Below, piece after piece: positions 15,522-41,830 of a stretch of 64,000 nt of DNA. Location of the stretch: contig NZ_RKLP01000009.1 of assembly GCF_004011865.1 (NCBI RefSeq), forward strand, positions 1 to 64,000. Reading direction: 5' to 3'. The position numbers were made by a program, and so were the translations under genes. Under the pieces are notes generated by a model, which worked only from the letters and a program-made list of their open reading frames with translations, had not been told where the DNA came from and ran no database searches. Numbering within the stretch: position 1 is the first letter of the stretch; each line of letters opens with the position of its first letter. The DNA is from Prescottella agglutinans (lineage in GTDB: Bacteria; Actinomycetota; Actinomycetes; Mycobacteriales; Mycobacteriaceae).

Positions 15522-15543
15522 CCCGTCGCGGACCCCGGAACGG

Positions 15544-15594: not shown

Positions 15595-15615
15595 TGCGTC
15601 CGGGTGTGTGACCGG

Positions 15616-15888
15616 CTACACCGACTCGGCAGCACCGAGGCGGGTGAGCATGCGGTCGAAGGCCGGGCCGTCGGCGCCCAGGTCGTCGTAACGCGACGCG
15701 GTCGTGTCGGAGCCGATCGACTCCGCCGCCCCCAGGCTCCGGGCCAGGTCGCTGCGTCGGCGCACGGCGGCCAGGATCAGCGCGTCCAGGTCGACGATCT
15801 CCTGCTCGAGTCGGTCGAGCGTGGCTGCATCGGCATCCCGGGACGATCCGGCGGCGTGGACGGCGAACGATTCGGTCTGAACGGTCAC
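15616..15888 (-). CDS. Chorismate mutase-like AroQ-family protein
   Basis: A 90-residue helical protein. Residues about 23-45 (TLDRLEQEIVDLDALILAAVRRRSDLARSLG) match helix 1 of AroQ chorismate mutases, and SRYDDLGADGPAFDRMLTRLG matches the C-terminal helix of the short actinobacterial enzyme (Rv0948c type). Several of the Arg/Lys residues that hold the substrate are present, but I cannot confirm all of them. The actinobacterial enzyme is weak alone and is activated by DAHP synthase, which is not in this window. The GTG start has GAGGAGA upstream. It is divergent from the MarR gene. Confidence 0.72.
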   Translation of the reverse strand: MTVQTESFAVHAAGSSRDADAATLDRLEQEIVDLDALILAAVRRRSDLARSLGAAESIGSDTTASRYDDLGADGPAFDRMLTRLGAAESV

Positions 15889-16008
15889 ATCGTCTCCTCG
15901 AGTCTCGGGCGGCGACGCCGCGGTTGCGACGCCGTCGCATGGTTAGTCGCAGCAGCGGGCTACACGTTACTTCCGGTACGCGAAACGCGCCGATTTCGTC
16001 CGGCGGCG

Positions 16009-16027
16009 TATAGTTGCACTGTGCAAC
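16009..16027 (+). promoter_or_regulatory. Promoter and MarR operator over the start codon
   Basis: GTTGCACTGTGCAAC (16013-16027) is a perfect 7-1-7 palindrome covering both the TATAGT -10 hexamer (16009-16014) and the GTG start at 16021. The -10-to-start distance of 6 nt implies a leaderless mRNA. A MarR protein bound here would block its own transcription. Confidence 0.75.
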
Positions 16028-16500
16028 ACGAACAAGCGGTCGACCAGGTGGCGGCGGTGCACGCCGAGTTGGTCCAGTTGGCGCGCGAGTTGGTCGCCGG
16101 AGGTCGCGACGCCCAGGGCGGGCCGTCGTTCGCCCAGCATTCGGTGCTCTCGTTCGTCGCGCGGAACCCGGGGTGCCGGGCCACCGACATCTCCGACGCG
16201 TTCGGAGTCAACCGGTCGACCGTTTCCCGACAGCTGCGGGGGTGCCTCGAGGCCGGCTGGGTGCGCTCCGAGCCGGGCTCGGTGCGGACCGGATACCCGC
16301 TGCGGCTGACCGCGGAGGGCGCGGCGGTGCTCGCGGACGCGGACCGGATGCGGTTCGACGAGGTCCGTGCCCGGGTGCGTGGCTGGTCGCCCGCCGAGAT
16401 CGCTCAGTTCGCTCGCACGCTCCGGCGGTTCCGTGACGCATCGGTTCCGGCGGACGAACACGACGCCACAGTTCGAGTTGGAGATGACGCACATGCGTGA
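16021..16500 (+). CDS. MarR-family regulator
   Basis: A 159-residue winged-helix regulator. The recognition region is CRATDISDAFGVNRSTVSRQLRGCLEAGWVRSEPG and the wing continues RTGYPLRLTAEGAAVL. Helices at both ends form the dimer. There is no ribosome-binding site; the GTG lies 6 nt after a -10 element, so translation is probably leaderless. Its stop overlaps the next gene's start by 8 nt, coupling it to the acyl-CoA ligase. Given its place next to the NRPS gene it may also control that cluster. Confidence 0.87.
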   Translation: MQHEQAVDQVAAVHAELVQLARELVAGGRDAQGGPSFAQHSVLSFVARNPGCRATDISDAFGVNRSTVSRQLRGCLEAGWVRSEPGSVRTGYPLRLTAEGAAVLADADRMRFDEVRARVRGWSPAEIAQFARTLRRFRDASVPADEHDATVRVGDDAHA

Positions 16501-18286
16501 GTACGGCACCCCCGCCCGCTTCACCGTCGCCGAGGACGACGCGATCGTCCACACCGTGTTCGCGCACGCGCGCCGCAGTCCCGACCTGGTGCTGTTCTCG
16601 CGGCCGCGTGGCGGCGCGTGGGTGGACGTCACCGCGACAGAGTTCGCGGACCTGGTGACCGGCGTCGCGAAGGGGCTCGTCGCGGCGGGGGTGCAGCCCG
16701 GAGATCGCGTCGCGCTGCTCTCGGCCACCAGGTTCGAGTGGTCGCTTTTCGACTTCGCGATCTGGGCGGCCGGGGCCGCCTCGGTGCCCATCTACGACTC
16801 CTCGTCGCCCGAGCAGATCCAATGGATCATGGAGGACTCCGGGGCGAAGATCGCCATCGTCGAGACCGCCACGCACGCGGCGGGATTCGACGGTGTGGGC
16901 CCGCAGCTCTCGCGGCTGCTGCAGATCGAGGACCGGGCCGTCGAGAAGCTCGTCGCGGAGGGCGCCGGGGTCGACGACGACGTGATCCGGGAACGGCTGT
17001 CCGGGATCCGGGTCGACGATCTGGCCTCGCTGGTCTACACGTCCGGTACGACCGGACGGCCCAAGGGCTGCATCCTCACGCATCGGAACTTCCTGTCCGA
17101 GGTCCGCGGAATCCTCTCCGCGTCGGTCGGTGAGGTGGCCCGCCCGGGTCACCGGATGCTGACGTTCCTGCCGCTCGCGCACGTGCTGGCTCGTGCGGTT
17201 TCGCTCGCGATGTTCGAGGCCGGTGGGACACAGGCGCACTGGTCGAACTTCGGCACGGTGGCCGCGCAGTTCCAGCGGTTCCGCCCCCACGTGATCCTCG
17301 GTGTACCGCGCGTGTTCGAGAAGGTGCGCGACAGCGCCGCGCACTCGGCGGAGAAGGGCGGCCGAATCCCGCAGGCCGTCTTCGCGTTCGCCGAGGCCAC
17401 CGCGGTCGCCTACAGCGAGGCACTCGACGCGGGTGGTCCGTCGTTGCGGTTGAAGCTGTACCACGCCGTCGCGGACCGCCTCGTCTACAAGAAGTTGCGC
17501 GCCGCGATCGGCAACGAGTGCTGGTGGGCGATCTCCGGTGGCGGCGCGCTCATGCCGCGACTCGGGCACTTCTTCCGCGGCGCAGGCATCCCCATCTACG
17601 AGGGCTACGGACTGACGGAATCGACTGCCGCCCACTGCGTCAACATTCCCGGGCAGACGAAGATCGGGTCGGTCGGTCGGCCCATGGGGGGCAACGGCGT
17701 CAGGATCGCCGAGGACGGCGAGATCGAACTGCGCGGTGGCGTCGTCTTCGGCGGCTACTGGAACAACGAGAATGCCACTGCCGCAACACTTCACGACGGT
17801 TGGCTCCGGACCGGTGACCTCGGTGAACTGGACGACGACGGATACCTGACGATTACGGGTCGCAAGAAGGACCTGCTCGTCACCGCCGGCGGCAAGAACG
17901 TCTCGCCGGGTCCGCTCGAGGACCGGTTGCGCTCACACGTCCTGATCTCGCAGGCGGTGGTGGTCGGCGACGGTCGACCGTTCATCGGGGCGTTGCTCAC
18001 CCTCGATGCCGAGCCTTTCGAGAACTGGAAGGCGGCGAACGGCAAGCCCGCGTCGGCCACCGTGGCCGACCTCGCCGTCGACCCCGATCTCCGCGCCGCT
18101 CTGCAGACCGTGATCGACGACGCGAACTCGACGGTGTCCCATGCCGAGGCGATCAAGCGCTTCGAGATCCTGCCCATCGATCTCACCGAGGAGGCGGGCG
18201 AGCTCACCGCGACGCTGAAGATCAAGCGGAACGTGGTGTCCGAACACTTCGCGGACCAGATCGAGTCGATCTACCGCGGGCGCTGA
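16493..18286 (+). CDS. Long-chain acyl-CoA ligase, FadD15-like
   Basis: A 597-residue ANL-superfamily enzyme that activates fatty acids with ATP and CoA. Motifs in order: YTSGTTGRPKG (P-loop), FLPLAHVLAR, GYGLTES, and TGDLGELDDDGYLTITGRKKDLLVTAGGKN with the adenylation-dependent hinge and lysine region. Length and wording follow M. tuberculosis FadD15 almost throughout, including the MREY-type start and the ending SDIEAIY/DQIESIY. ATG 16493 is supported by TTGGAG upstream; ATG 16484 is an alternative. It may supply acyl-CoA generally, or an acyl cap for the NRPS downstream. A stem-loop at 18293-18322 ends the transcript. Confidence 0.88.
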   Translation: MREYGTPARFTVAEDDAIVHTVFAHARRSPDLVLFSRPRGGAWVDVTATEFADLVTGVAKGLVAAGVQPGDRVALLSATRFEWSLFDFAIWAAGAASVPIYDSSSPEQIQWIMEDSGAKIAIVETATHAAGFDGVGPQLSRLLQIEDRAVEKLVAEGAGVDDDVIRERLSGIRVDDLASLVYTSGTTGRPKGCILTHRNFLSEVRGILSASVGEVARPGHRMLTFLPLAHVLARAVSLAMFEAGGTQAHWSNFGTVAAQFQRFRPHVILGVPRVFEKVRDSAAHSAEKGGRIPQAVFAFAEATAVAYSEALDAGGPSLRLKLYHAVADRLVYKKLRAAIGNECWWAISGGGALMPRLGHFFRGAGIPIYEGYGLTESTAAHCVNIPGQTKIGSVGRPMGGNGVRIAEDGEIELRGGVVFGGYWNNENATAATLHDGWLRTGDLGELDDDGYLTITGRKKDLLVTAGGKNVSPGPLEDRLRSHVLISQAVVVGDGRPFIGALLTLDAEPFENWKAANGKPASATVADLAVDPDLRAALQTVIDDANSTVSHAEAIKRFEILPIDLTEEAGELTATLKIKRNVVSEHFADQIESIYRGR

Positions 18287-18292
18287 ACCTGC

Positions 18293-18322
18293 CCGGACCT
18301 GGTCGGATCCGACCATGTCCGG
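18293..18322 (+). terminator. Palindromic terminator after the acyl-CoA ligase
   Basis: A 16-bp perfect palindrome TGGTCGGATCCGACCA (18300-18315), extended by CCGGAC/GTCCGG arms with one mismatch. It lies 7 nt after the ligase stop codon. It has no T tract, but stem strength and position support termination. Confidence 0.6.
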
Positions 18323-18581
18323 CGCGTCCCGACACCGTCCGGGCCGGGTTCGACCACGGCCCCTGAACTACGCATAACGCGCATTTCACCCAGTCCGAGC
18401 ATTCGCGCTGAGTGGACGCTCCCGACGCGATACTCTCACGTCCGGCATTGGAGAACTTCCGCTCTTCGGTCGCTTGTTTGTGCTCTCTGAGGTTGGACGT
18501 GAAGGGTCGTTTTGCGTGGGGTCGGAAGGAATTTCTGCGAACTCGGTTTTCGCGGAATCGGGTGGAACTAATATCGGATCC
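18323..18581 (+). promoter_or_regulatory. NRPS upstream region with -10 element
   Basis: No gene is evident apart from the continuing NRPS frame. TAATAT at 18569-18574 lies 7 nt before the GTG at 18582, matching the spacing for leaderless transcription. No consensus -35 is visible at the right distance, so an activator may be needed. A second weak -10 (TACTCT, 18431-18436) is possible. Confidence 0.5.
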
Positions 18582-21500
18582 GTGACCGGAGCCGCGGCTT
18601 CGGCCACCGGTGTCACCGCCTCCGACGGCGAAGTGCTACCACTGTCCGCGGCGCAACGTGGAATCTGGTTCGCGCAGCACCTGATCGAGAACGTTCCGAT
18701 CGCGATCGCGCAGTACGTCGAGATCGTCGGCGACCTCGACGTCCACGCGCTCTCCGACGCCTGCGCGGCCGCCGCCCGCGAGTTGGGCACCGGCATGTTG
18801 CGGATCGTCGAGATCGACGGTGAGCCGTACCAGGCGATCGACTACGCGGTGAGCGATCGGACGACGCACCTCGATTTCCGCGCCGAGTCCGATCCTGTTG
18901 CGGCAGCGCAGGCGTGGATGCGGCGCGAGTACAGCACCCCCCGGAACCTGCTGGCGGACAGGCTCGTGGAGTCGGCCACACTGCGGATCGGCGAGTCGCA
19001 CTACTACTGGTACGCCAGGATCCACCACATCGCCCTCGACGGCTTCGGCGCCATGACGTTCGTGAACCGGACCGCGGAACAGTACACCGCCGCAGTCACG
19101 GGCGCGGCACTTCCCGACTGGAAGGCCTACGGCCTCCGCGAAATCAGCGAAGACGAGGCGCGATACCGGACGTCGTCGCGGTTCGAGACGGACCGTCGGT
19201 ACTGGGGTGAGCGCACCCGGGACCTGCCGCACCCGATCAGTCTGGCCGGCCGCTCCGCGGACGTCGGACCGCACTCCCAGCGGGCGACGGGCCCGCTGCC
19301 CGCGGACGTGGAATCCGCGATGCGTCGGATGGTCGCCGAAGCCGACGGAATCACGTTCGCGGCGATCGTGGTCGCCGCGGTCGGGGCATTCCTGTCCCGG
19401 CTGACCGGCGAGGACGACGTGGTCCTGAGTCTGCCCGTGTCGGCTCGGACCACCGCGAAACTGCGCCGCTCGGGTGGAATGGTCTCCAACGTCGTGCCGA
19501 TCCGCCTCGACACCGGCGGAGGCGTCACCTGTGCGGAGCTGGCCCGCCGCGTCCAGGTGGAACTGACCGGCGTCCTGCGGCATCAGCGGTACCGGCACGA
19601 AGACATCAGGCGTGACGCCGGCGTGGGCGGTGGCCGCCGAGGATTCTTCGGTCCCGCCGTCAACATCATGATGTTCCACGGCGAGATCCGCCTGGGGCAC
19701 GACATCGGCACGTTGCACGTCCTCACCACCGGCCCCGTCGAGGACCTCGCGGTGAACATCTACCCCGCGCTCGAGGGCGAGGGAGCGCACGTCGACTTCG
19801 AGGCGAATCCCAATCTCTACACCCCCGAGGAACTGCGTGCCCACCACGCGCGATTCCTCGAGTTCCTCGCGGCCTTCGCCGAGTCGGCGGACACGGCGGT
19901 GGCCGACCTCGACGTGATGCACGCCGACGAGCGGGCCGAGCTGGTGCCGCTCCGCGGTCCGGCCGCCTGCCCGCCGCAGCTGCTGCCCGACCTGCTGCGG
20001 CGCGGTGCCGAGATCCATCCCGACAACGTCGCGATCTCGTCGGACACCGGCGATCTCACCTATCGCGACCTCGATGCGACGTCGAATCGATTGGCGCGGT
20101 TGCTCATCGATCGTGGTGCCGGCCCGGAGACTTTCGTCGCCATCAGCATGCCGCGCTCGACGGACGCGCTGATCGCGGTGTGGGCCGTGGCCAAGACCGG
20201 TGCGGCCTTCGTGCCGATCGATCCCGGGCTGCCGACCGACCGCATCGTCCACATGCTCACCGATTCGCGGTCCGCCATCGGCCTCACGTGTGTCTCGGAA
20301 CGACCGGGACTGCCCGACGGTGCCGACTGGGTCGTCGTGGACGACGACGCGACCCGCGCTGCCGCGGAACGCTTTTCGCAGGATGCTGTCACGGATGCGG
20401 ATCGGATCGCGCCCGTCGGAATCGCGAACTCCGCCTACATGATCTACACCTCGGGCTCGACGGGACTCCCGAAGGGCGTCCTGGTGACTCACGAGGGGCT
20501 GTCCGCGTTCGCCTCCGGTGCGCGGTCGGAACTGAACATCGGCCCGCAGTCCCGAGTGCTGCGGTTCTCGTCGGCGAGTTTCGACGCATCGGTGTTCGAG
20601 ATGCTCCAGGCCTTCAGCTCCGGAGCGGCGATGGTCGTGGCACCGCCCGGCGTCTACGGTGGCCTGGACCTCGTGGATCTGCTTCGTCGGCAGCGTGTTT
20701 CGCACATCATCTCGGCACCCACCCTGATGAACACCGTCGATCCGCGGGGCCTGACCGATCTCGAGGCCGTCGTCGTCGGCGGCGACGTGTGCACGCCGGA
20801 CCTCGTCGAGCGATTCGGTGACGTGTGCCGGTTCACCAACAGCTACGGTCCCACCGAGACGACGATCGTCATCACCGCCGGCGATCCGCTCGCTCCCGGC
20901 GACCCGATCACGATCGGTCGTCCGATCCAGGGCGCCGGAGCACTCGTCCTGGACCGCAAGCTGCGTCCGGTCCCCGTCGGTGTCGTGGGCGAGCTGTATC
21001 TCACCGGACCCGGCCTGGCCCGGGGGTACCACCGCCGCGGCGCGCTCACGGCCGACCGGTTCGTCGCGGATCCCTTCGGCGAACCCGGAACCCGTATGTA
21101 CCGCACCGGAGACGAGGTGCGGTGGACGGCCACCAACGAACTCGAGTACGTGGGCCGGTCCGACTTCCAGGTCAAGATTCGCGGTTTCCGAATCGAACTG
21201 GGGGAGATCGACGCGGCACTGCTCGAGCAGGACGGCGTGAACTTCGCGGCGACGGTCGCCCACGAGCGCGCGGCCGGTCCGGTGCTCGTCTCCTACGTCC
21301 GGATGGACGCCGCCGCGGAGTTCGACGCGGCCGCCGTCGTCGCGGGTGTGGCGCGAATCGTGCCGTCGCACATGGTGCCGGCCGCCGTGGTGCGCCTCGA
21401 CCACGTTCCCGTCACTCCCGCGGGAAAGTTGGACCGTCGCGCGCTGCCGGTGCCCGAGTTCGGCGGCGACGCCGAGGAGTACCGCGCACCGTCGACGCCG

Positions 21501-24500
21501 GTGGAACAGGCCATCGCCGACATCGTCGCCGAGGTGCTCGGCCTCGACCGCGTCGGCGTGCACGACTCGCTGTTCGCGCTGGGCGGCGACAGCATCGTGG
21601 CGATGCAATTGGTGTCCCGGGCGCGCGCCGCCGGGATCGGATTCACCGCGCGGGAAGTGTTCGAGCACAAGACCGTGGCCGAGATCGCACGGGTGTCCGT
21701 GCCGATCGACAGCGTGCCGCAGGACCTGCTGGAAGAGCTTCCGGGCGGCGGCATCGGACCGGTTCCGCTGACACCGGTCATGTACGAGATGACGGCCCGC
21801 GGGCCGTTCGACGACTTCCACCAGTCGGTGCTTCTCACGGCGCCGGGCGAACTCGACGACCGGCGCCTGACGGACACCGTGCGCGCGGTCGTGGACCGCC
21901 ACGACATGCTGCGCAGCCGTCTCGACACGGACCCGCAGGGGGAGTCGACGCTCACCGTCGCGGCCTCCGGCACCGTCGACCCGTCTCACCTCGTCACCCG
22001 GGTCGCGGTGACGAGCGCGCCGGGCACCCGGGCCTTCGATTCCGCAGTGCTCGACGAATGTGACCGTGCCGCACAACGTCTCGATCCCCGAGCCGGGGTG
22101 ATGCTGCAGGTGGTGTGGCTCGACGCCGGCGACTTCGGCGGCAGGCTGCTCGTCGTGGCACACCACCTCGTCGTCGACGGGGTCTCGTGGCGCGTCCTCG
22201 TGCCGGACTTCGTGGTCGCGTGGATGCAGGTCTGTGCGGACGGTGCGGTCGAGCTTCCCGCGGTGGGTACCTCGTTCCGGCGCTGGGCCCACGGTCTGCG
22301 GGACGCGGGGGTCGAAGGCGCCTACAGCGACGAACTCGACCGATGGCGCGAGATCCTCACCGGCCCCGACCGCCTCGTCGGTGCCCGGCCGCTCGACCCG
22401 CGCATCGACACCGTAGCCACGACGGCGCGCGTCCACGTCGAACTCGGTGCAGCGGTGACGGATACAGTGCTCGGACGGCTTCCCGACGTGTTCGGGTGCG
22501 GCGCCGCCGACGGACTCCTCGCGGCTCTGACGATGGCGGTCGTGCACTGGCGCCACGAGCACGGCTTCCCCGAACGGTCGGTCCTGCTCACCCTCGAAGG
22601 GCACGGGCGCGAGGAGGACGCGGTTCCGGGCGCGGACCTGGCCCGCACGGTGGGCTGGTTCACCAGCACGTTCCCGGTGCGGCTGGCGCTTCCCGACGTG
22701 GATCTCGGCGACGCCTTCGCGGGCGGACCGGACGCCGGCGCGGTGATCAAGGCGGTCAAGGAGCAGACGCTCGCCGTGCCCAGCCGCGGCATGGGTTTCG
22801 GTGTGCTGCGGCACCTCGATCCGCGCACCCGCACCGAACTCGCCGACCAGCCTCGCCCGCAGATCAGCTTCAACTACCTGGGCCGGTTGGGCGTCGGGCA
22901 GTCGATGGACGCGACGACCGGTTGGCTGCCGGACCCGGCGGCCCCGGACCTCGTCGCCCGCAGCGGGTCCGCGATGGCAGTGGCCGCCGCCGTCGACATC
23001 AACGCGATGGTGACCGACGGCCCCCACGGTCCGCGCCTGACGGCGACGTTCGCTTATCCGACGGCGGTTCTCGGCGATGCGGACGTGGCCGAGCTGGCAG
23101 ACCTGTGGCGCCGCGCCCTCGAGGGCCTGGCGGCGCACGCCGACCTACCCGGTGCCGGCGGGCTCACGCCGTCCGACGTCCCGTTGGTCACGGTGTCCCA
23201 GACCGAGATCGACCGGTGGGAGCACCGCTACCCGGCGGTACGCGACGTGTGGTCGCTCTCGCCGTTGCAGGCGGGACTGCTGTTCCATGCGCGTCTGGTC
23301 GCGGACGGGGTGGACGTGTACACCGCGCAACTGCGGATGGACCTGGTCGGCCGGGTCGACTCGGCCCGCCTGCGGGCGGCGCTCGATGCTGTGGTCGAGC
23401 GGCATGCGAACCTGCGTACCGCGTTCGTCTACGACGACTCCGGTACACCCGCCCAGCTGGTGCTCGAGCACGGCGAGGTTCCCTGGAACGAGATCGACCT
23501 CCGACAGACGACGGGCGCAGACCGCGACCGCGAGCTGTCCCGGATCCTCGACGAGGATCGGGTGACCCGATTCGAACTCGACCGTCCGCCGCTGGTGCGG
23601 GCGACGCTGGTCCGACTCGCCGACGACGGGTACGCGTTCGCGGTGACCAACCATCACATCGTTCTCGATGGCTGGTCGATGCCGCTGCTGGTGCGCGAAC
23701 TGCTGGTCCGCTACGCGGCCGGCGAGGCGGCCACCGTGCCGGAACCGCGGCCGTACCGCGACTTCCTGCAGTGGCTCGCGGCGCGGGACGGGGAGCGGTC
23801 CCGGCAGGCGTGGCGCACCGCGCTCGACGGGCTCACCGAAGCCACCCTGCTCGGCGGCGCAACCGCGGAGGGGGTCGCGGACGACGCCCCGATCGAGGTC
23901 GACGTCCCGGCGGCGCCGTCGCTGATCGACACGATCACCGACCTCGCCCACACTCTCGGCGTCACGGTCAACACGGTGGTCCAGGCGGCGTGGGGAATCC
24001 TTCTGTCCCGCAGCACGTCCCGATCCGATGTCGTGTTCGGTGCCACCGTCTCGGGGCGACCCCCGCAGCTGGCAGGAGTCGAGGAGACGCTCGGGTTGTT
24101 CATCAACACGATTCCGGTGCGCCTGCGCACCGACCCGGCAGAGTCGATCGGGGCGATGCTGTCCCGGCTGCAGGGTGAGCAGGCCGAGTTGCTCGACCAC
24201 CACCACGTCGGGCTCGCCGAGATCCAGGCGATCGCGGGGATCGGCAACCTGTTCGACACGCTGACGGTGTTCGAGTCGTACCCGATCGAGCGGGCCGGAC
24301 TCGACGAGGACACCGACATCGCCGGGATGCGGGTGCGCGGTCTGCAGGGCCTCGACGCCACGCACTACCCGATCACGCTGATGACGCTGCCGGACATGCG
24401 CATGACCCTGCGGTACCGGCCGTCGTCGTTCACGGCGGCCGAGGCGACCACCCTGGCCGCGAGGCTCGTGCAGATCCTGGGCGCGATCGTCGCCGACCCG

Positions 24501-30500: not shown

Positions 30501-33500
30501 CTGCTGCGGCGGGTCCGCTCGGTGGATCTCGCGGCCTTCGCCCAGTCCGACGTGCCGTTCGAGCGCGTCGTGGAGGTGGTCGATCCGCCTCGGTCGCAGG
30601 CGTACTCGCCGCTGTTCCAGGTCGCGTTGTCGTTGCAGAACCACGGGGAGGCCGTCCTCGAGCTTCCCGGCGTGACCGCCACCGTCGTCGACCCGGGCGC
30701 CGACGTCGCCAAGTTCGACCTCGAGTTCACGCTCCGGGGCTCCGGTTCCGCGGGACTCCTCGGCTCGCTCACCTACGCGACCGACCTGTTCGACCCGGAG
30801 ACCGCGGCCGCCATCGCGGACAAGCTGGTGCGCGCGCTCGCACAGGTCGCCACCGATCCGGCCCTGCCGGTCGGCGACCTCGACCTGCTCGACGACCACG
30901 ACCGGGCCCTGGTGTCCCGGGCCCCGGTGCCGTCACCCGTCGCCCCGCGGACGATGGCCGAGATCCTCACCGCCGGTGCGGCGTCGGATCCGGGCGCGGT
31001 GGCGATCCGCGGCGACGGCGTCGCCCTCACCTACGCCGAACTCGACGCACGGTCGAACCGCCTGGCGCGGGTGCTCCTCGACCGGGGGGTCGGCCGCGAG
31101 GGATTCGTCGCGCTGTCGTTCCCGCGGTCCGTGGATTCGATCGTCGCGATGTGGGCGGTCGTGAAGACCGGCGCCGCGTTCGTGCCCGTCGACCCCGCAC
31201 ACCCCGCGGACCGGATCCGGCACATGCTCACCGACTCCGGCGCGGACGTCGGGCTCACGACCGCGGCCGTCGTCGACCGACTGCCGGACTCGACGCGGTG
31301 GTTGGTGCTCGACTCCGACGACCTCGAGCGCGACTGCGCGCGACGCCCGGATTCCGCCGTCACCGACCGGGACCGCGGCGGGCCGATCCTGCTCACCAAC
31401 GCCGCCTACATGATCTACACGTCCGGGTCCACCGGACTGCCCAAGGGCGTGGTCGTCGAGCACACCGGCCTGGCGTCCTTCTGTGCCGACGCCCGCACCG
31501 AACTGGTGCTGTCGCGGCGCTCCCGGGTGCTGCGGTTCTCGTCGTCGAGCTTCGACGCGTCGGTGTTCGAGATGCTCGCCGGCTTCAGCGTGGGCGCCAC
31601 CCTCGTGGTGGTCCCGCCCGCGGTGATCGGCGGTCACGAACTCGCCGAGCTGATCCGGGACCAGCAGGTGACCCACATCCTCACCGCGCCGGCGGCGCTG
31701 GGCACGGTCGACACCGACGGCCTGGACTCCCTCGAGACGGTGATCGTCGGTGGCGACGTGTGCCCGCCGGAGCTCGTCGAGCGGTTCGCGCCCGGACGCC
31801 GGTTCTTCAACAGCTACGGTCCCACCGAGACCACGATCATCATCACGATGACCGAGCCGCTGTCGGTGGGCGAGCGGATCACGATCGGCACCCCGATCGC
31901 GGGCGCCCGCGCGACGATCCTCGACTCGCGGCTGCGCCCGGTGCCCGTCGGCGTGATCGGCGAGCTGTACCTGTCGGGTCCCGGCGTCGCCCGCGGCTAC
32001 CACAAGCGTGCGGGGCTGACGGCGTCCCGGTTCGTGGCCGACCCGTACGGCGGCGGCCGCATGTACCGCACGGGCGATCTCGTCCGGCGCACACGTGACG
32101 GGCTGCTCGACTTCGTCGGCCGTATCGACTCGCAGGTCCAGCTGCGGGGCCTGCGCATCGAACTCGGCGAGATCGAGGCGGCGCTCGTGGGCTGCCCGGA
32201 CGTCGCGCAGTCGGTGGTGGTGCTGCACAGCGACACCCGCACCGGCGATCATCTCGTCGGTTACGTGGTGCCCGAGCGGGAGGCGGTCCTCGACCCGGAG
32301 GACCTGCGCGAGCGGGTCGGTTCGTCCCTGCCGGCGTACATGGTGCCGACCCAGGTCGTCGTGCTCGACCGATTGCCGGTGACGGCGGGCGGCAAGCTCG
32401 ACCGCCGGGCGCTCCCGGTTCCCGAGTTCGTCTCGACCCGGGAGTTCCGGGCCGCGTCGAATCCGCTGGAGGAGAAGGTGGTCGGCGTGTTCGCCGAACT
32501 GCTCGGGCTGGAGCAGGTGTCGGTGGACGACAGCTTCTTCGACCTGGGCGGCAATTCGCTGCTCGCGACGCGACTCATCGCCCGCGTCAACGCCGTACTC
32601 GGCACCGCGCTGGGCATCCGCGAACTGTTCGAGTACCCCACCGCGGCGGCGCTCGCCGCGCGGGCCGAGTCGGCCCGGACCGACTCCGGGCCGGAACTGG
32701 GCACGCTCGAGCGGCCGGAGCGGATCCCGCTCTCGCCGGCGCAGCAGCGCATGTGGTTCCTCAACCGGTTCGATCCCACGTCGGGTGCCGAGAACATCCC
32801 GATGGCGTTGCGGCTGTCCGGGGCGCTCGACGTCGACGCGCTGCACGCCGCGATCGCCGCGACCGTCGACCGGCACGAGGCGCTGCGCACGGTGTACCCG
32901 GACTCGCCGAGCGGCCCGCACCAGGTGATCGTGACAGCGGCGCACGTGGTTCCGTCGCTCGATCCGGTGGCGGTCGACGAGCACGAGATCCTGCCGATGG
33001 TCGTCGGCCTGGCGGGCACGGGATTCGACGTCACCGCCGAGGCCCCGCTGCGGGTGGCACTCCTGCGGGTCGGGCCCGACGAACACGTGCTCGTGCTGGT
33101 CGTGCACCACATCTCGGCGGACGGGTTCTCGGTGGCCCCGCTCGCCCGGGACGTCATGGTCGCGTACGCCGCGTTCCGCCAGGGCCTCGAACCGTCGTGG
33201 GCGCCGCTGTCCGTCCAGTACGCCGACTACAGCCTGTGGCAGCGGGCGGTGCTCGGCGACGAGGACGACGGCGGGTCCGTCGCCGCCCGTCAGATCGCCT
33301 ACTGGTCGGACACCCTCGCGGACCTGCCCGATCAGCTGGACCTGCCGACCGACCGGCCGCGTCCGGCCGTGCAGACGTTCCGCGGGCAGACGCACGCGTT
33401 CACCCTGGACGCGTCGCTGCACCGGGCGCTGCTCGCGCTCGCACGCAGGCAGGGCGCCACACTGTTCATGGTCGTGCACGCGGCGTTCGCGGCCCTGCTG

Positions 33501-36500
33501 AGCAGGCTCAGCGGAGCCGGCGACATCACGATCGGCACCCCGATCGCGGGTCGCGGTGAACAGGCACTCGACGGTCTGGTCGGCATGTTCGTCAACACCC
33601 TCGCGCTGCGGACCGACGTGCGCGCCGACGCCACGTTCGCGGATCTGTTGGACCGGGTGCGCGGCACCGACCTGACGGCGTTCGCCCACGCGGACGTGCC
33701 GTTCGAGCGGATCGTCGAGGTCCTCGATCCGGAGCGCTCCACCGCGCGCCACCCGCTGTTCCAGGTGGCGCTGTCGCTGCAGAACCTCGGCCGCACCCGG
33801 TTCGAACTCCCCGGTCTCGACATCGACGTCGTCGACGCGGGATTCGAGCCCGCGAAGTTCGATCTGCACCTCACGCTCGTCGATCATCGTCACGACGACG
33901 GCGAGCCGGCCGACATCGCAGCATCGTTCACCTACGCCGCGGATCTGTTCGACGGGGCGACCGTCGCGCGGTTCGCGAACCGGTTCGAGCGGCTGCTGCG
34001 TGCCGTCGTCGCCGACCGCCGCGCGGTGATCGGCGACATCGACCTGCAGGGCGAGGCGGAGCGGCGTGCGGTCCTGGTCGAGTGGAACGCGACCCGGCAC
34101 GAGGTGCCGAGCGCCACGTTGGCCGATCTGTTCGCGGAGCGGGTGCGTGCCACCCCGGACACGGTGGCAGTGGTCGTCGAGGAACAAGAACTCACCTACG
34201 CCGAGTTCGACGGTCTCGCGAATCGTCTCGCCCGGGAGCTGATCTCGCGGGGTGTCGGGCCCGAGACCCGGGTCGCCCTCGCGATCCGGCGGTCGCTCGA
34301 ACTACTGGTGGCGATGTACGCGGTCGCCAAGGCGGGCGGCGCGTACGTCCCGATCGACCCGGATCATCCCGCCGAGCGGACCGAGTACGTTCTCGAATCC
34401 GCCTCGCCGGTGGTCGTTCTCACCTCCAGCGGCGAGACGGTCCCGGTTCCGGAGGGCGCCGAGCGGCTGGACGTCGACACCGTCGACCTCGGCGGGCGGC
34501 GGTCCGATCCGATCACCGACGCCGAACGATGCGCCCCGCTGCGCGCGGAGAACACGGCGTACGTGATCTACACGTCGGGCTCGACGGGCCGCCCCAAGGG
34601 CGTCGCGGTTTCACACGCGGCGATCGTCAACCAGTTGCTCTGGAAGCAGGCGCAGTTCGGACTCGACGGCACCGACGCGGTGCTGCTGCGGACGGCGGCG
34701 ACGTTCGACCTCTCGGTGTGGGAGTTCTGGTGGGCACTGACCGCCGGCGCCCGACTGGTGGTCGCGAAGGCCGGGGGCGAGCAGGACCCGGCGTACCTGG
34801 AGCGGCTGATCCGCGACCACCGGGTCACCACGGTGCATTTCGTGCCGTCGCTGCTGACCGCGTTCCTCGCGTCGGTGGGCGACGAACCGCTCGACGCGTT
34901 GCGCCGCGTGATCTGCATCGGCGAGGCGCTGCCCGCCGAGGTGGTCCGCAGGTTCGCCGCGGTGAGCGACGCCCCGGTGTTCAACCTGTACGGGCCGACC
35001 GAGGCCGCGGTGAGCGTCACCCATCACGCGTGCGGACCCGACGACGGCCCGTCCGTCCCGATCGGTGTGCCCGAGTGGAACACCCGCGTGTACGTGCTCG
35101 ACGCCCGTCTGCAGCCGGTGCCGATCGGGGTCCCCGGCGAGCTGTATCTCGCGGGTGCCCAGCTCGCACGCGGGTACGTGGGACGGACCGACCTGACGTC
35201 CGACCGGTTCGTGGCCGACCCGTTCGGCGCCGCCGGCACCCGCATGTACCGCACCGGCGACCTGGTTCGCTGGGTGCCGCGGGAGTCGGGCGCCGTCCTG
35301 GACTACCTGGGCCGCACCGATTTCCAGGTGAAGCTGCGGGGCTTCCGGATCGAGCTCGGGGAGATCGAGACGGCACTGTCCGCGCACCTCGATGTCGATC
35401 GGTCGGTCGTGACGGTGCACCGGGCGCCCGGTGGTGCCGAACACCTCGTCGGCTACGCGGTGCCGCGGCCCGGCACCTCGCCCGACGTCACCGCGCTGCT
35501 CGCGTTCGTCGCCGAACGCGTGCCCAGCTACATGGTGCCGACGACGGTCGTGCTGCTCGACGAGCTTCCGCTCGGTGTCACCGGCAAGCTCGACCGCCGG
35601 GCGCTGCCGACACCGGAGTTCGCGAGCAGCAGCGGTTTCCGTGAGCCGGTCACCGCCACCGAGGAGATCGTCGCGGGCATCTTCGCCGACCTGACCGGCG
35701 GTGCCCGGGTGGGCGCCGACGACAGCTTCTTCGAGGTCGGCGGCAACTCGCTGTCGGCGACCCGGGCGACGGCGCGGATCAACGAGGCGTTCGGGACCGC
35801 GCTGACGGTCCGCGAGTTCTTCGAGGTGCCGACGGTGTCGGCCCTGGCGTCGCGAGTGGATGCGCACGCCGGGCTCGACCGTCCGAGGCTGACGCAGTCG
35901 CAGCGGCCGGCACGGCTTCCGTTGGCGCCGGCGCAGGAGCGGATCTGGTTCGACAACCAGCGCACCCGGGGCGGTGAGTGGAACATCCCGTTCGCGCTGC
36001 GGTTGCGCGGCGCGATCGACGTCGAGGTGCTGCGTGCCGCGGCCGGCGACGTCGTCGCGCGGCACGAATCGCTGCGGACCGTGTACCCGGCCACCACGGA
36101 CGGTCCGGTGCAGGTGATCGTGCCCGCGGCGGACGCGATTCCGCAGGTGGAGGCCGTCGAGACGGATCCGGTGTCCCTCGAGGCCGAGCTGAATGCGTTC
36201 CTGTGGGCCGACTTCGACGTCGCCACCCAGTTGCCGATGCGGATGCGGCTGTTCCGGATCGGACCGGACGATCATGTGCTCGCGGTGGTGGTGCACCACA
36301 TCTCGGCCGACGGCTTCAGCGTCGGGCCGCTCACCCGCGACGTCGTGGTGGCGTACGCGGCGCGTGCGGTCGGCGTCGCACCGCAGTGGGATCCGCTGCC
36401 CGTGCAGTTCGCCGACTACGCGGTGTGGAAGCACACACTGCTCGGCGAGTTCGACGATCCGGCGAGCGAGGCACACCGCCAGATGGACTACTGGGCCCGC

Positions 36501-37256
36501 ACGCTCGCGGAGCGGCCCGAGTTCCTGGACTTCCCGACCGATCGGCCCCGCCCCGCGGTGCGTCCGACGGCCGGGGCGGCCGTGCCGGTCCACCTCGACG
36601 CCGACACCCACGCGGCCCTCGTCGCGCTGGCCCGCGAGTGCGGGGCCAGCCTGTTCATGGTGCTGCAGGCGGCGTTCGCGTTGTGCGTCAGTCGGTTCGC
36701 GAACGAGAAGGACGTCACGGTCGCCACGTCGATCGCGGGCCGCGGCGAGCCCGAACTCGACGACCTGATCGGCAACTTCTCCGACGACGTCCTGATGCGG
36801 GTGGTCGTCGACGAAGGGGATTCGGTCGCGGACCTCGTCGCCGCCGTTCGCGCGGCGGCGCTGGGTGCGTACGCGCACCCGGACGTGTCGAACCCGCGAC
36901 TCGAGCGGGCGCTCGGCCTCGACCCGGGCGCGCCGTACAACCCGCTGTTCCAGGTCACGCTGATCCTGCAGCGGGCCGTGGACGGGCTGGCGGCGGAGTT
37001 CCCGGGGCTGTCGATCGAACAGCATCCGGTGCCGACGACCGTCGCCAAGCACGAACTCGAGTTCAGCCTGAACGACCGCTACGACTCGCTCGGCGTGCCG
37101 ATGGGAGTCACGGGTGGTTTGCTGTACCAGACGGCGCTGTTCGACGAGTCGACCGCGCAGGGCTTCGTGGATCGGTTCGTGTCGGTGCTGCGAACGATGG
37201 CGGCCGATGCGTCCCGCTCCGATCGTGACAACCGACGATGCGAGGAGTGTAGGTGA
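18582..37256 (+). CDS. Non-ribosomal peptide synthetase, five modules plus terminal C domain
   Basis: A giant NRPS of 6224 residues with order C-A-T-E, C-A-T, C-A-T, C-A-T, C-A-T, C. All six condensation domains keep HHxxxDG (HHIALDG, HHIVLDG, HHISIDG, then HHISADG three times). All five adenylation domains keep YTSGSTG/FTSGSTG and the terminal GK lysine. All carriers keep GGxS. The first C domain resembles the EntF starter C domain, so an acyl or aryl cap is expected. The A2 pocket reads DVWHFSLVDK, the classic serine code. The chain ends in a C domain with no thioesterase or reductase. No MbtH-like gene is seen nearby. I chose GTG 18582 because homology starts there and TAATAT lies 7 nt upstream; the frame is open to TTG 18474. 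A GT2 gene overlaps its stop. Confidence 0.93.
18636..23190 (+). other. NRPS module 1: C(starter)-A-T-E
   Basis: C1 18636-19960 (HHIALDG at 19023; EntF-like HQRY.HE and [10 protein letters not shown] segments). A1 about 19980-21450, pocket read by eye as D-A-F-I-V-G-S-I-V-K, no confident substrate. T1 has LGGDSI, the GGDS form common before E domains. E1 about 21760-23170 has [31 protein letters not shown] and NYLGR, all E-domain signatures. The first residue should therefore be delivered as the D-epimer. Confidence 0.85.
23240..26345 (+). other. NRPS module 2: C-A-T, serine
   Basis: C2 about 23250-24590 (HHIVLDGWS near 23652), of the type expected to accept a D-residue donor after E1. A2 about 24600-26085 has pocket residues D-V-W-H-F-S-L-V-D-K, taken from [24 protein letters not shown] and [11 protein letters not shown]. 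This is the canonical serine code. T2 carries LGGNSL near 26207. Confidence 0.87.
26390..29520 (+). other. NRPS module 3: C-A-T
   Basis: C3 has HHISIDGWS. The A3 pocket reads by eye D-A-L-F-V-G-A-I-M-K, probably a hydrophobic residue, low confidence. A3 has a short insertion ([12 protein letters not shown]) before the A8 core. T3 has LGGNSL near 29395. There is no epimerase. Confidence 0.8.
29575..32665 (+). other. NRPS module 4: C-A-T
   Basis: C4 has HHISADGVS. The A4 pocket reads D-A-F-L-I-G-S-I-I-K, close to A1 (D-A-F-I-V-G-S-I-V-K), so both may load similar hydrophobic residues. In A4 the usual DFQVKLRG core reads DSQVQLRG, losing a conserved Lys; the A10 Lys is intact. T4 has LGGNSL near 32548. 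Confidence 0.8.
32725..35870 (+). other. NRPS module 5: C-A-T
   Basis: C5 has HHISADGFS. The A5 pocket reads D-L-W-H-I-I-L-V-S-K. This shares W, H and L with serine-type pockets but has Ile in place of Phe and Ser, so the substrate is uncertain. T5 carries VGGNSL near 35738. Confidence 0.8.
35920..37220 (+). other. NRPS terminal condensation domain
   Basis: C6 keeps HHISADGFS, but the segment reading GMFVNTL in C3-C5 is GNFSDDVL here. Its entry motif is [12 protein letters not shown] rather than SPAQxRMWFLN. No A, T, TE or reductase domain follows. It may release the peptide by cyclisation or onto an external amine or hydroxyl, or hand it to a separate protein. Confidence 0.8.
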
Positions 37257-38173
37257 CCGACCGGGAGCGCACGCTGGCGAAGAAGACGTTCGGACCACCG
37301 ACAGAGGTTTCGGTGGTCGTCGCCGCGTACAACGCGCTCCCGGAGATCGACGCCCAACTCGAGGCGCTCGCGCGCCAGGACTACGACGGCGAGTTCGAGG
37401 TCGTCGTGAGCGACAACCAGGGCAGTGCGGCGCTGCGAAGCCACGTCGAACAGCACCCGCTGCGCGACCGTCTCGGGCTGCGGTGGGTGGATTCGAGTGC
37501 CGTTGCAGGGACGTCGCACGCGCGCAACGTCGGCACCCGGGCCGCGCGGTACGACTTCGTCGCCTACTGCGACCAGGACGACGCCGTCTACCCGGGATGG
37601 CTCACCGCGTTGACCGTCACCGCCAAGGATCACGGCATCGTCGGTGGACTCCTCGAACGGGACACCCTCAACGACCCCGTGATCGCGCAGTGGCGGGCGC
37701 TCCCGCCACCGGACAAGCTGCCGCTGATGGCGCACTTCCTGCCGAGCACGTTCGGCTGCAACCTGGGCATCTGGCGTTCGGTGTTCGACGAGATCGGTGG
37801 ATGGGACGACACGTACCCGACCGCGGGCGGCGACGTCGACTTCTGCTGGCGTGCCCAGTTGCGCGGGTACGACCTCGGCTACAACCCGGAAGCCCTTGTC
37901 GCATACCGCTACCGGACCACCCGCCGGGAAATGTTCGATCAGGCGGTCGAATACAACATGGCGGAGGCTCGGCTGGCGAAGCAGTACGCGGCCCAGGGTG
38001 CCCGCGGAACCAATCCGCTGATCCTGTTCGGCTACCTCGGGTGGCTGTTGCTCCGGCTGCCGGCCTTGCCGTGGAACTGGCCGGCCGGGCGCCGGGGCCA
38101 GTGGTACTGGGTGGCCGGCGCCGTCACGGGCCGGATCCGGGGCAGCATCGAGCAGCGCCACCTGTACCTGTAG
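37253..38173 (+). CDS. GT2 glycosyltransferase 1, coupled to the NRPS
   Basis: A 306-residue GT-A fold glycosyltransferase. [10 protein letters not shown] opens the nucleotide-binding domain, VVSDNQG follows, the metal-binding acidic motif is YCDQDD, and the acceptor-site acidic motif is GGDVDFCWR. The C-terminal third has a hydrophobic stretch ([19 protein letters not shown]) that could associate with the membrane, and the protein ends EQRHLYL. The GTG start overlaps the NRPS stop (GTGA), so the two are translated together. This is the strongest evidence that sugar transfer belongs to the peptide pathway. It has no signal peptide, so it acts in the cytoplasm or at the inner membrane face. 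Sugar donor unknown. Confidence 0.88.
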
Positions 38174-38176
38174 TCG

Positions 38177-39064
38177 TCACACGTAGAGGACCCGGTGCCG
38201 GATGCTGCCGCGGATGCGACCGGCGAACCCGGCGAGGTAGCAGATCCACGTTCCGGTCGGCAGCTTGGTGACGGACTGGGGGAGTAGCGGATTCCGGAGC
38301 ACCAGCAGCACCGGCATGGCCAGGGCGAGCAGCGGATTCCGGCGCCGGTGGCCGCGGTCGCGGTAGCGCACGTAGGTGTCGACGTCCGACTGGGCCCACG
38401 CGTACTGCTGACGCCACAGCGCGGGGTAGGAACTCTTCACGCGGTAGGCCATCATCGCCTCGGGTTCGTGGCCCAACGTGAGACCCGCGAGTTGGATCCG
38501 CAGGCAGTAGTCGACGTCCTCGCCGCCGCGGAGGCAGTCGACGTCCCACGGCCCGACCTTGTCGATCGTGCTGCGCCACATCGCCAGATTGCAGCTGCCG
38601 GCGACCGGGAACAGGCCCGGAACCTCGGTGCGGGCCTCGGGCGCATTGACCGGTGTCCATTCGGCGGCGCGTGGGGAGTTGAGGGTGGTCGTCTCCACGG
38701 GTCCGCTGACGGCGTCGAAATCGGCGGCACGGGCGACGAGACGTCGGAGCCATTGCGGGTGGGCCTGGTCGTCGGCGTCGCAGAACGCGATGAAGTCACC
38801 GCGGGCGGCCTCGACCCCGACGTTGCGCGCGTGCGCGGCACCGGGCGCCGCTCCGGCGTCCACGCGGCGCAGCCGCAGCCGCTCGGCCAGAGGATGGTCG
38901 GACAGGTGTCGGGCCAGTCCGTCCGTCGATCCGTTGTCGGCGACGATCACCTCGAACTCGCCCGGGTAGTCCTGTGCCGCCAACGCAGTGAGCTGCACGT
39001 CGACGACCGGGGTCGCGTTCACGGCGGGAACGACCACCGAGACGAGAACAGGCGTGCGTGACAT
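38177..39064 (-). CDS. GT2 glycosyltransferase 2
   Basis: A 295-residue paralogue of the other three GT2 proteins here. LVSVVVPAVN, VIVADNGSTDGL, FCDADD (metal site) and GGEDVDYCLR (acceptor/catalytic acidic motif) are intact. A hydrophobic segment (LLALAMPVLLVLRNPLL) precedes the tail, which ends IRHRVLYV. It is the last gene of a three-gene minus-strand set and converges on the NRPS-coupled GT2 gene with only 3 nt between stop codons. A transcription clash or read-through control is possible. The start at 39064 lies 16 nt after the preceding stop. Confidence 0.87.
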   Translation of the reverse strand: MSRTPVLVSVVVPAVNATPVVDVQLTALAAQDYPGEFEVIVADNGSTDGLARHLSDHPLAERLRLRRVDAGAAPGAAHARNVGVEAARGDFIAFCDADDQAHPQWLRRLVARAADFDAVSGPVETTTLNSPRAAEWTPVNAPEARTEVPGLFPVAGSCNLAMWRSTIDKVGPWDVDCLRGGEDVDYCLRIQLAGLTLGHEPEAMMAYRVKSSYPALWRQQYAWAQSDVDTYVRYRDRGHRRRNPLLALAMPVLLVLRNPLLPQSVTKLPTGTWICYLAGFAGRIRGSIRHRVLYV

Positions 39065-39080
39065 GAGACCTCCTGGTTGT

Positions 39081-39983
39081 CTACACGTAGAAGACGTTGA
39101 ACTCGCGACTGCCGGCGACCCGTCCCGTGAGGGCGCTCACATGCCAGAGCCATTGTCCGCGTGGCAGTCTCGTCAGCGTGGTCGGGAGCAGCGGATTGCG
39201 TATGACGATGAGGACGAGCATGAGGACGAGGTATGCAACGGGGCGCCCCGACATGCACGTCGCGCGGTGGTCCCGGTACAACTGCACCTCGCCGCGGCCG
39301 TACGCGAACGACTGACGCCAGAGCGAACGGAGGTCGTCGCGGAGCCGGTAGTCCACCACTGCGCGTGGTTCCCAGCCCAGCGAGTAGCCCCGCAACTGCA
39401 GGCGCCAACTGAACTCCATGTCCTCGAGCGCGTACACGTATGTGGTGTCCCACCCGCCGATCTCGTCGAACACCTCGCGCCAGATGCCCATGTTCCCGCC
39501 TCCGCCCCACGGGAACCGGGCATTCGCCGATTTGGGCTGGGCGGTCACGTCCGAGAGCGGGCGCCAGGCCACAGCACGCTCACTCGACAGTGGGCGGCCG
39601 TCGAGGCCGCCGGCCACCGCGTCGAATCGCATTGCGGCGGCAGCCAGGTGGCGCAGCCAGTCCGGGCGGACGCGGTCGTCGGCGTCGCAGAACGCAACGA
39701 ATTCGCCTGCGGAACGGGCGACGCCGACGTTCCGGGCGTGACTGACGCCTGGCGCGTCCGACGCATCCACGCACGACAACCGCAGCCTGTCTCGGAGCGG
39801 GTGGTGCCGCAGGAACTGCTCGAGGCCGTCGGTCGATCCGTTGTCCGCGACCACGACCTCGAAGGCGCCGTCGTAGTCCTGCTGTGCGAGCGCGGTCAAC
39901 TGGACGTCGATGATTCCCTTGACGTCGAGGGCCGCGATCACAATCGAGATCAGTGCGGGGGCCGGCCGCGTCGCATCAGACAT
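39081..39983 (-). CDS. GT2 glycosyltransferase 3
   Basis: A 300-residue GT2 enzyme with LISIVIAALD, VVVADNGSTDGL, FCDADD and the acidic motif ALEDMEFSWR. The hydrophobic segment YLVLMLVLIVIRNPLL comes before the tail, which ends EFNVFYV. Its ATG overlaps the stop of the upstream GT2 gene by 8 nt (ATGTCTGA), so translation is coupled. It differs from its neighbours in a glycine-rich segment (PWGGGGNMGIW) where the others read GCN or GSCN, perhaps reflecting another acceptor. Confidence 0.87.
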   Translation of the reverse strand: MSDATRPAPALISIVIAALDVKGIIDVQLTALAQQDYDGAFEVVVADNGSTDGLEQFLRHHPLRDRLRLSCVDASDAPGVSHARNVGVARSAGEFVAFCDADDRVRPDWLRHLAAAAMRFDAVAGGLDGRPLSSERAVAWRPLSDVTAQPKSANARFPWGGGGNMGIWREVFDEIGGWDTTYVYALEDMEFSWRLQLRGYSLGWEPRAVVDYRLRDDLRSLWRQSFAYGRGEVQLYRDHRATCMSGRPVAYLVLMLVLIVIRNPLLPTTLTRLPRGQWLWHVSALTGRVAGSREFNVFYV

Positions 39984-40857
39984 AGAAGACCCGGTGCTTC
40001 CACGCGGTGCGGAGCCTGCTGCTCAGGAATCCGGCTTCGGAGACCCACAGTCCCCGCGGGGCACGCGCGACGAACCGCGGTACGAGCGGATTGAACAGCA
40101 CCAGTCCCAACAGGGACAGTCCGAACGCGTACATCGACCGACGCGTGTGCCCGTATTCACGGAAGGCGAGATGGAGCAGAACCGAGTTTCGGCCGTAACG
40201 ATTCGACTGGTCCCAGACGCCACGGTAGGTGTCGCGGAATCTGTACGCTACCAATGCATCCGGGGTATGACCCAAGGTCAGCCCGGCAAGCTGCAGTCGC
40301 CACGATGTCGCGACGTCGTCGGCGCCTCCGGTGAAGGTCTCGTCGAATCCTCCGATCTTCTCTAGGCTCGAACGCCAGGCCCCGAAGTTGCAGCCGATCG
40401 CGTACGGCAGGAATTCGTCGGCGCCGAACCGCTCGTGTCCCTGTGGCAGGACCCGCCACGATGCGACTTCTGCGGAGTTCAGTGTCGTGGTGTCGACCGC
40501 GCCACCGACCGCGTCGTAGTCGTCCGAGGCGCGCACGAGTTCGGTTAACCAGTCGGAGTGCACGCGGTCGTCGCCGTCGCAGAAGGCGAGGAAGTCGCCC
40601 TGTGCGGCGGCGATGCCCACATTGCGCGCGTATGCCATGCCGGTGCCTCCGGCGCTGTCGACGCAGCGGAGCCCCAGCCGGTCGGTGAGGGGATGGTTGG
40701 CAAGGTGCTCGGCGAGTCCGTCGGTGGAACCGTTGTCGCTGACGATGGTTTCGAACTCGCCCGCGTAGTCCTGTGCGGCGAGAGCCTCCAACTGTCCGTC
40801 TATCAGTTCGACTGTGTTGCGTGCGGGAATGATCACCGACACGAGGCGGGCTGGCAC
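39976..40857 (-). CDS. GT2 glycosyltransferase 4
   Basis: 293 residues; first gene of the minus-strand GT2 set. Motifs are LVSVIIPARN, TIVSDNGSTDGL, FCDGDD and GGADDVATSWR. The hydrophobic stretch FGLSLLGLVLFNPLV is followed by a tail ending KHRVFYV. The start is taken as GTG 40857, where homology to the paralogues begins. The frame is open to 41007 but the extra residues are Pro/Ser-rich. TACGAT lies 6 nt upstream of the GTG, so the mRNA is probably leaderless. The palindrome GCAATCGTATTGC overlaps that -10 and may be an operator. Confidence 0.87.
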   Translation of the reverse strand: MPARLVSVIIPARNTVELIDGQLEALAAQDYAGEFETIVSDNGSTDGLAEHLANHPLTDRLGLRCVDSAGGTGMAYARNVGIAAAQGDFLAFCDGDDRVHSDWLTELVRASDDYDAVGGAVDTTTLNSAEVASWRVLPQGHERFGADEFLPYAIGCNFGAWRSSLEKIGGFDETFTGGADDVATSWRLQLAGLTLGHTPDALVAYRFRDTYRGVWDQSNRYGRNSVLLHLAFREYGHTRRSMYAFGLSLLGLVLFNPLVPRFVARAPRGLWVSEAGFLSSRLRTAWKHRVFYV

Positions 40858-40860
40858 CGC

Positions 40861-40873
40861 GCAATCGTATTGC
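40861..40873 (-). promoter_or_regulatory. Promoter and operator candidate of the GT2 set
   Basis: GCAATCGTATTGC, a 5-3-5 palindrome containing the minus-strand -10 TACGAT (40869-40864), which lies 6 nt before GTG 40857. The upstream 90 bp also contains a hairpin (TGCGACA/TGTCGCA, 40897-40934, with inner TGGAC/GTCCA) that may end the sirtuin transcript. Confidence 0.55.
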
Positions 40874-40963
40874 AAACGTGCGTGCTTCGGGCGGAATGCG
40901 ACAATGCTGGAATTGGACGGTTGTCCATGTCGCAGCGTGGTTTTGGGCGGCGGCGGTGCGTGC

Positions 40964-41728: not shown

Positions 41729-41830
41729 GTCGTCGATTGTGCGCGGGGGGCTTCCGGTGGGCCGCACCCGCGTGGGCCCGGTGGCCCCGATCGGGTTGAA
41801 TTGACACATGCCAACGTGTGCGCGGATCCG

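Follow-up and report, generated by a model that had tools for sequence, protein, structure and literature searches.

Gene clusters for mycobacterial glycopeptidolipids, which are acylated peptides bearing sugars, carry GT1 glycosyltransferases, methyltransferases, MbtH, and acyl and transport genes. The calcium-dependent antibiotic (CDA) synthetases, which begin with a starter condensation domain, yield a lipopeptide that is released by a thioesterase (TE) and is not known to be glycosylated. In rhodococci, many lipopeptide nonribosomal peptide synthetase (NRPS) gene cluster families, mostly of unknown product, have been described (Ceniceros et al., 2017, PMC5550956). Here, we describe one NRPS gene and four family 2 glycosyltransferase (GT2) genes of Prescottella agglutinans (genome G000; 5.43 Mb, 22 contigs), located in a 64,000-nucleotide (nt) stretch, "the window", that covers positions 1 to 64,000 of contig NZ_RKLP01000009.1 (C22). 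The five genes are a single co-inherited pathway unit, which we read as a stand-alone set of genes for making a glycosylated lipopeptide (a pentapeptide capped by an N-acyl or aryl group, with dedicated GT2s and TE-less release), with a probability of roughly 0.6 as judged from sequence. The features of the unit are as follows, with condensation (C), adenylation (A), carrier (T) and epimerization (E) domains, a starter C domain (Cs) and a terminal C domain (Cterm).

18287..40963: unit of the NRPS and four GT2 genes, absent en bloc from the corresponding site of six sister genomes (limits from blastn of the empty sites)
18474..37256, plus strand: NRPS of at most 6260 amino acids (aa), Cs-A-T-E / 4x(C-A-T) / Cterm, without TE; exact start unsure
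18624..19913, plus strand: starter C domain, predicted to take an acyl or aryl donor (PDB-set and NCBIfam matches)
21684..22973, plus strand: E domain of module 1, converting residue 1 to D (own clade in the tree of C and E domains; TIGR01720 match below cut-off)
24564..26093, plus strand: A domain of module 2, code DVWHFSLVD by alignment, presumably Ser
35757..37166 (stretch searched), plus strand: terminal C domain, HHISADG intact, motif GNFSDD (motif, tree, and ratio of nonsynonymous to synonymous substitution rates, dN/dS)
37253..38173, plus strand: GT2 'a', overlapping the NRPS stop by 4 nt, probably translationally coupled (Pfam, structure model)
38177..39064, minus strand: GT2 'b'
39081..39983, minus strand: GT2 'c'
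39976..40857, minus strand: GT2 'd' (5' end about 40857)

Pfam and motif scans recovered every gene that a first-pass annotation of the window had named: a MarR-type regulator, an acyl-CoA ligase, the NRPS, a GT2 on the NRPS stop and three GT2s facing it. The Pfam E-values of these genes range from 1e-11 (MarR) to 5e-259, and four further genomes (G007, G008, G009, G012) show this layout of NRPS and GT2s next to the same ligase, so the gene calls are not due to chance. The three facing genes are tightly spaced, with 3 bp separating their end from that of GT2 'a'. In G008 (P. defluvii SampleD3_15, G008:C1:4596000-4622000) the locus is present with several interrupted frames, which are perhaps assembly errors because the completeness of this genome is 79%.

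In a comparison sample of 14 Prescottella genomes, GT2s like those of the window were found in five, and the NRPS was seen in the same five. A profile search for the Cterm (four candidates scored per genome) gave matches of 2e-180 or better in these carriers, and the best matches in the nine other genomes (1e-135 to 3e-149) score like ordinary C domains. The site was read directly as empty in six of the nine (G001, G004, G005, G006, G010, G013; L127-L132): the MarR gene, the ligase, a sir2-type gene and a FAD gene are kept, the NRPS and every GT2 are gone, and the ligase abuts sir2. Blastn alignment of the flanks ends at window positions 18286-18289 and restarts at 40954-40985, with intervening DNA of at most 33 bp in five of the six genomes and 1.2 kb in G005. 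Eleven of the 14 genomes, carriers and non-carriers of the NRPS alike, have the ligase at no less than 81% identity; in G002, G003 and G011 the ligase matches are 58%-identical paralogues only, and the site is not readable there. Neither the NRPS without GT2s nor GT2s without the NRPS were met in any genus genome read at this site. The genes that flank the unit are as follows.

16021..16500, plus strand: MarR-type regulator, outside the unit (winged-helix match in frame 15406-16500; start at 16021 plausible)
16487..18286, plus strand: acyl-CoA ligase (open reading frame (ORF) 16367-18286, likely start 16487, AMP-binding; FadD11 is the closest NCBIfam model, below cut-off)
40964..41750, minus strand: sir2-type gene of the right-hand flank (5' end approximate)

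Because the MarR gene and the ligase stay where the NRPS and GT2s are absent, they lie outside the pathway, and the NRPS and GT2s are tied together. The first-pass annotation had counted both flanking genes into the pathway, an assignment that we reject on these grounds; its joining of the NRPS and GT2s into one pathway is borne out by their co-occurrence in five of 14 genomes, the six empty sites and a conserved junction (below). No dedicated acyl-activating enzyme was found in the unit, the adjacent ligase being a flanking gene, and such an enzyme is not an obligatory feature. Comparison of empty sites can in this way settle the gene membership of a cluster without chemistry.

In a tree of the flanking genes (ligase, sir2, FAD and glyoxalase proteins; 11 rows, with FAD missing from one and glyoxalase from three), genomes with the block (five) and without it (six) are intermixed, and on that tree the block was therefore gained or lost whole more than once. 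Exchange of the stretch together with its flanks would leave the same pattern. Presence and absence of the block at this one site thus takes the form of repeated whole-block loss or exchange; no search for mobile-element genes was made.

The junction between the NRPS and the GT2 is also conserved across genera. Genomes were scanned with a five-row GT2 alignment, and in the best 80 of 310 confirmed loci, taken with stretches of up to 10 kb on each side, NRPS-type domains lie near the GT2 in 17; sixteen of these are in Rhodococcus sensu lato, Gordonia or Antrihabitans, and one is in Actinoplanes with a single 36% A-domain match. Matches to the GT2 at E <= 1e-50 occur in 74 of 401 sampled family genomes (14 of 31 genera). 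In all 22 genomes with the strongest matches (E <= 3e-124) this GT2 is the immediate neighbour of a Cterm match, as established by match coordinates for 18 pairings and by DNA reading for four (the Cterm match of G218 is partial).

Fourteen clusters were compared, eight of a window type and six of an exporter type. Module 1 of the window type (the window, G007, G009, G012, Antrihabitans stalactiti G079, G113, R. maanshanensis G100 with six modules, and G063 with nine modules) contains an E domain, and no separate A-T-TE protein was found in the fetched regions of these clusters. A DrrA-like exporter is found in this type in G063 only, beside a further NRPS, and the other ATP-binding cassette (ABC) matches there are about 30% identical. 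The exporter type (R. globerulus G211, G104, G245, G021, G334 and G267) carries a divergent DrrA-like ATPase and permease, an upstream GT2 in five of six clusters (not G104) and a separate A-T-TE protein in four of six; no E domain was found in these clusters. Related clusters thus extend over several genera, which makes the unit less singular than first proposed. At G063:C1:636000-695999, the nine-module window-type cluster adjoins the exporter and the start of a further NRPS with a starter C domain.

A same-strand GT2 follows the Cterm directly in 13 of the 14 clusters, and in G100 the GT2s only face the Cterm. In 11 of these 13, the NRPS stop and the GT2 start share 4 nt; the nearest start in G079 is 10 nt back, and none was found near the stop in G021. 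Possible alternative GT2 starts lie 3-18 nt past the NRPS stop in G007, G009, G012 and four others. Ten of the 13 adjacent GT2s form one clade in a GT2 tree (51 rows), the adjacent genes of G007, G009 and G012 fall in another, and GT2s 'd' and 'c' belong to supported groups of their own. The transferase in this slot therefore differs between clusters that share one peptide code, and GT2 genes are swapped between species while the module codes stay nearly constant. The late aspartate D194 is present in 15 of 15 aligned GT2s. The structure model of GT2 'a' has a predicted local distance difference test (pLDDT) score of 91.3, and a fold search with it returned generic GT-A/GT2 matches with no clue to donor or acceptor. 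The GT2 array also holds a hexapeptide-repeat, acetyltransferase-like gene in three of 14 clusters: G007 (L011:11971-12576; the copy searched with Pfam), R. maanshanensis (L023:13989-14564) and G063.

Rather than decorating the NRPS product, the GT2s might act on a cell-envelope glycan and share only locus and regulation with the NRPS. Their sequence and fold do resemble polysaccharide-type GT2 enzymes, and among 16 further, hand-picked loci with weaker GT2 matches, an NRPS C domain lies in the 20-kb stretch in seven and none within about 10 kb in nine. Whole-block presence and absence, the overlap of stop and start, and the pairing of the adjacent GT2 with a Cterm in 22 of 22 genomes argue against such a role, which we consider quite unlikely. 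GT2s regularly found apart from an NRPS, which according to the first-pass annotation would speak against its proposal, are not seen among those most like 'a' (22 of 22 linked) and are seen in part among distant ones, and the order of NRPS and GT2 that it had proposed to check is kept across genera (13 of 14 clusters, 22 of 22 genomes with the strongest GT2 matches).

By Pfam and motif scans, the NRPS contains seven condensation-type, five AMP-binding and five PP-binding stretches in the order Cs-A-T-E / C-A-T / C-A-T / C-A-T / C-A-T / Cterm, in agreement with the five modules, E domain and module 2 serine code first reported (here DVWHFSLVD at nine positions). The nine-position A codes, read by alignment, are DAFIVGSIV (module 1), DVWHFSLVD (module 2), DALFVGAIM (module 3), DAFLIGSII (module 4) and DLWHIILVS (module 5), and all five are identical across the window, G007, G009 and G012 save one I/V in module 3 of G012. 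Close variants of the five codes recur in other genera. From published codes, we take that of module 2 to specify Ser.

The starter C domain had been called EntF-like; it does match EntF (8e-52, the same value as ObiF1), but its better matches in the PDB set are 7c1k (8e-70) and CDA peptide synthetase I (1e-58), both of which we take to be lipo-initiating. Its best NCBIfam models, below cut-off, are MxcG and EntF, which accept dihydroxybenzoate, and an aryl-capped, siderophore-like peptide in place of a lipopeptide would be in keeping with them. Because neither an aryl carrier nor dihydroxybenzoate genes were found within the unit, we lean to an acyl rather than an aryl donor and regard the siderophore-like product as rather improbable. 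The acyl-X1-Ser-X3-X4-X5 peptide first proposed is retained as a minimal chain only, given a TE-less terminal C domain that had been overlooked along with the missing TE.

This conserved terminal C domain without a TE is the most unusual part of the pathway. No TE domain, such as a TE-released synthetase would carry at its end, was found in the NRPS by Pfam, and the enzyme has what a C-domain-released NRPS should have, namely a terminal C domain, an intact catalytic motif and no TE. When 98 C and E domains of the 14 clusters were placed in a tree (quick method without bootstrap), all 14 Cterm domains fell in a single clade (Shimodaira-Hasegawa-like approximate likelihood ratio test (SH-aLRT) 100, stem 0.6). 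All 14 have an intact HHxxxDG and carry GN[FL][SA][DE]D, and internal C domains in which the motif was matched mostly have G[ML]F[VI]xT at the same place (13 internal domains unmatched). Values of dN/dS for the Cterm in Prescottella comparisons (0.15, 0.21 and 0.26) fall inside the 0.13-0.35 span of the other domains, and the view of the Cterm as a relic was rejected on this basis.

Alternatively, the Cterm may be half of a split module that condenses the chain with a residue carried on an A-T or A-T-TE protein encoded elsewhere, in which case the product would be at least a hexamer and TE-released. A separate A-T-TE protein is encoded inside the cluster in R. globerulus (G211), G104, G245 and G021, with Cterm domains of the same clade, so that the Cterm could serve a module in trans. 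Yet no near-full-length stand-alone A-T-TE homologue was found in G000, G007, G008, G009 or G012, where the best matches are 31-36% to parts of larger NRPSs (one is present in G021), and the TE-bearing frames of G000 are too long (1648-8959 aa) or too short (224-553 aa) for such a protein. Nor was A-T-TE seen in the fetched regions of exporter-type G334 and G267. In the four A-T-TE proteins read, neither the FDxS aspartate nor the YGPTE motif is present in the A domain (WSGSSE stands in place of YGPTE at L027:6484-9054), which argues that even where present they are not ordinary modules for an alpha-amino acid. Because A-T-TE is absent from those five genomes and its A domain is atypical, release through the Cterm is favoured with moderate confidence, and the split module is possible but unlikely. 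Three TE frames of 850-860 aa were observed in R. globerulus.

In the proposed pathway, the starter C domain would join residue 1 to an acyl or, less probably, an aryl group, module 1 would epimerize this residue, and four more modules would add Ser and three other residues. The Cterm would then move the chain from the last carrier to a nucleophile, which may be a sugar, a small amine, or a hydroxyl or amine within the chain itself. The first sugar may be attached to the peptide of this same NRPS by GT2 'a', whose translation is probably coupled to that of the NRPS, and GT2s 'b', 'c' and 'd' may lengthen or branch it. Several observations weigh against this glycosylated lipopeptide pathway, in addition to the A-T-TE genes and the distant GT2 loci given above. 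No sugar-biosynthesis or exporter gene is among the five genes of the unit. The GT2s have a generic fold and belong to generic families; among NCBIfam models all four score highest with MftF, at 95-112 bits (cut-off 280), and DxDD, present in 42 of 43 cluster GT2s, is missing from one facing GT2 of G007. The structure model of the Cterm was poor (pLDDT 48.8) and was left unused. As G000 is in 22 contigs, a gene at a contig edge could have been missed, and a TE frame at G000:C4:450 lies near such an edge.

A gene of the Cmt1/Ag85 mycolyltransferase type was found in seven of the 14 cluster regions (G021, G063, G100, G113, G245, G267, G334; one copy lies at L039:8095-9075) and was absent from the fetched stretches of the remaining seven. 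The R. trifolii copy has Cmt1 as its best PDB match (5e-70). Across 24 genomes, the six matches most like it, itself included, are exactly the cluster-linked ones; that of G113 is weaker. With 5-11 mycolyltransferase matches per genome, a chance match in a region of about 40 kb is estimated for roughly 6% of clusters. This linkage suggests an outer-membrane (mycomembrane) product. A more tentative and rather doubtful extension is that the clusters make a family of outer-membrane glycolipopeptides of mycolic-acid bacteria, with a conserved core from a TE-less NRPS with a new Cterm type and an exchangeable GT2 array varying like surface-antigen sugars, mycoloylated in some lineages by the linked Ag85/Cmt1-type enzyme. 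The window's own mycolyltransferase-type gene at 11643-12812 (best PDB matches PS1 and Cmt1) gives no evidence for the unit and was rejected as a member: it lies outside the insert, and the empty-site genome G010 has a similar match about 7 kb from the ligase (G010:C8:203863).

Elsewhere in the window, a 90-aa chorismate-mutase-like ORF (15616-15888; below NCBIfam cut-off) lies beside the MarR gene and is also present in four of the six empty-site genomes. A protein with TY-Chap domains, which Pfam describes as type III secretion or YbjN peptide-binding chaperones, is encoded at 10355-11497 in this actinobacterium. A second very large NRPS locus of G000 spans G000:C9:3507-49824, with frames of 6928, 5661 and 1962 aa and a DrrA-like ABC gene a few kb beyond. 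This gene, at C9:48757, is the most exporter-type-like DrrA gene of G000, and it was rejected as an exporter near the unit.

The unit is a good candidate for an undescribed family of glycosylated lipopeptides. No description of such an NRPS-GT2 unit was found among the matches listed in open-licence literature, and the family is likely, though not proved, to be undescribed. If this reading is right, the genes are now named for an undescribed class of sugar-decorated lipopeptides that occurs across several Mycobacteriaceae genera, is linked to a distinct Cterm clade with testable release chemistry, and has its sugar transferases exchanged between species while the peptide core stays constant.

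Among known systems, mycobacterial glycopeptidolipid pathways share the general idea of an acylated peptide with sugars in a mycolic-acid bacterium. However, GT1, methyltransferase, MbtH, polyketide synthase and MmpL genes are all lacking from the unit, as the first-pass annotation had noted for the first three; its glycosyltransferases are GT2 only, and G000 has its two MbtH genes elsewhere, on contigs C2 and C20. Homology to these pathways was rejected on gene content, and a pathway of this type is very improbable. CDA-like lipopeptide synthetases have a starter C domain in common with the window. MftF, the mycofactocin GT2, is the model nearest to the window GT2s, yet they fall outside its family by score. 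The families of Ceniceros et al. (2017, PMC5550956) likewise include rhodococcal NRPSs with a starter C domain, but the excerpted text of that survey names no NRPS-GT2 unit and mentions a glycosyltransferase only for a saccharide cluster, and the window NRPS was matched to none of its families. Exporter-type clusters of R. globerulus and Rhodococcoides trifolii differ from the window in their divergent DrrA/B-like exporter, frequent upstream GT2 and A-T-TE genes, and lack of a detected E domain, and have in common with it the Cterm clade, the adjacent GT2 clade and the Ser code.

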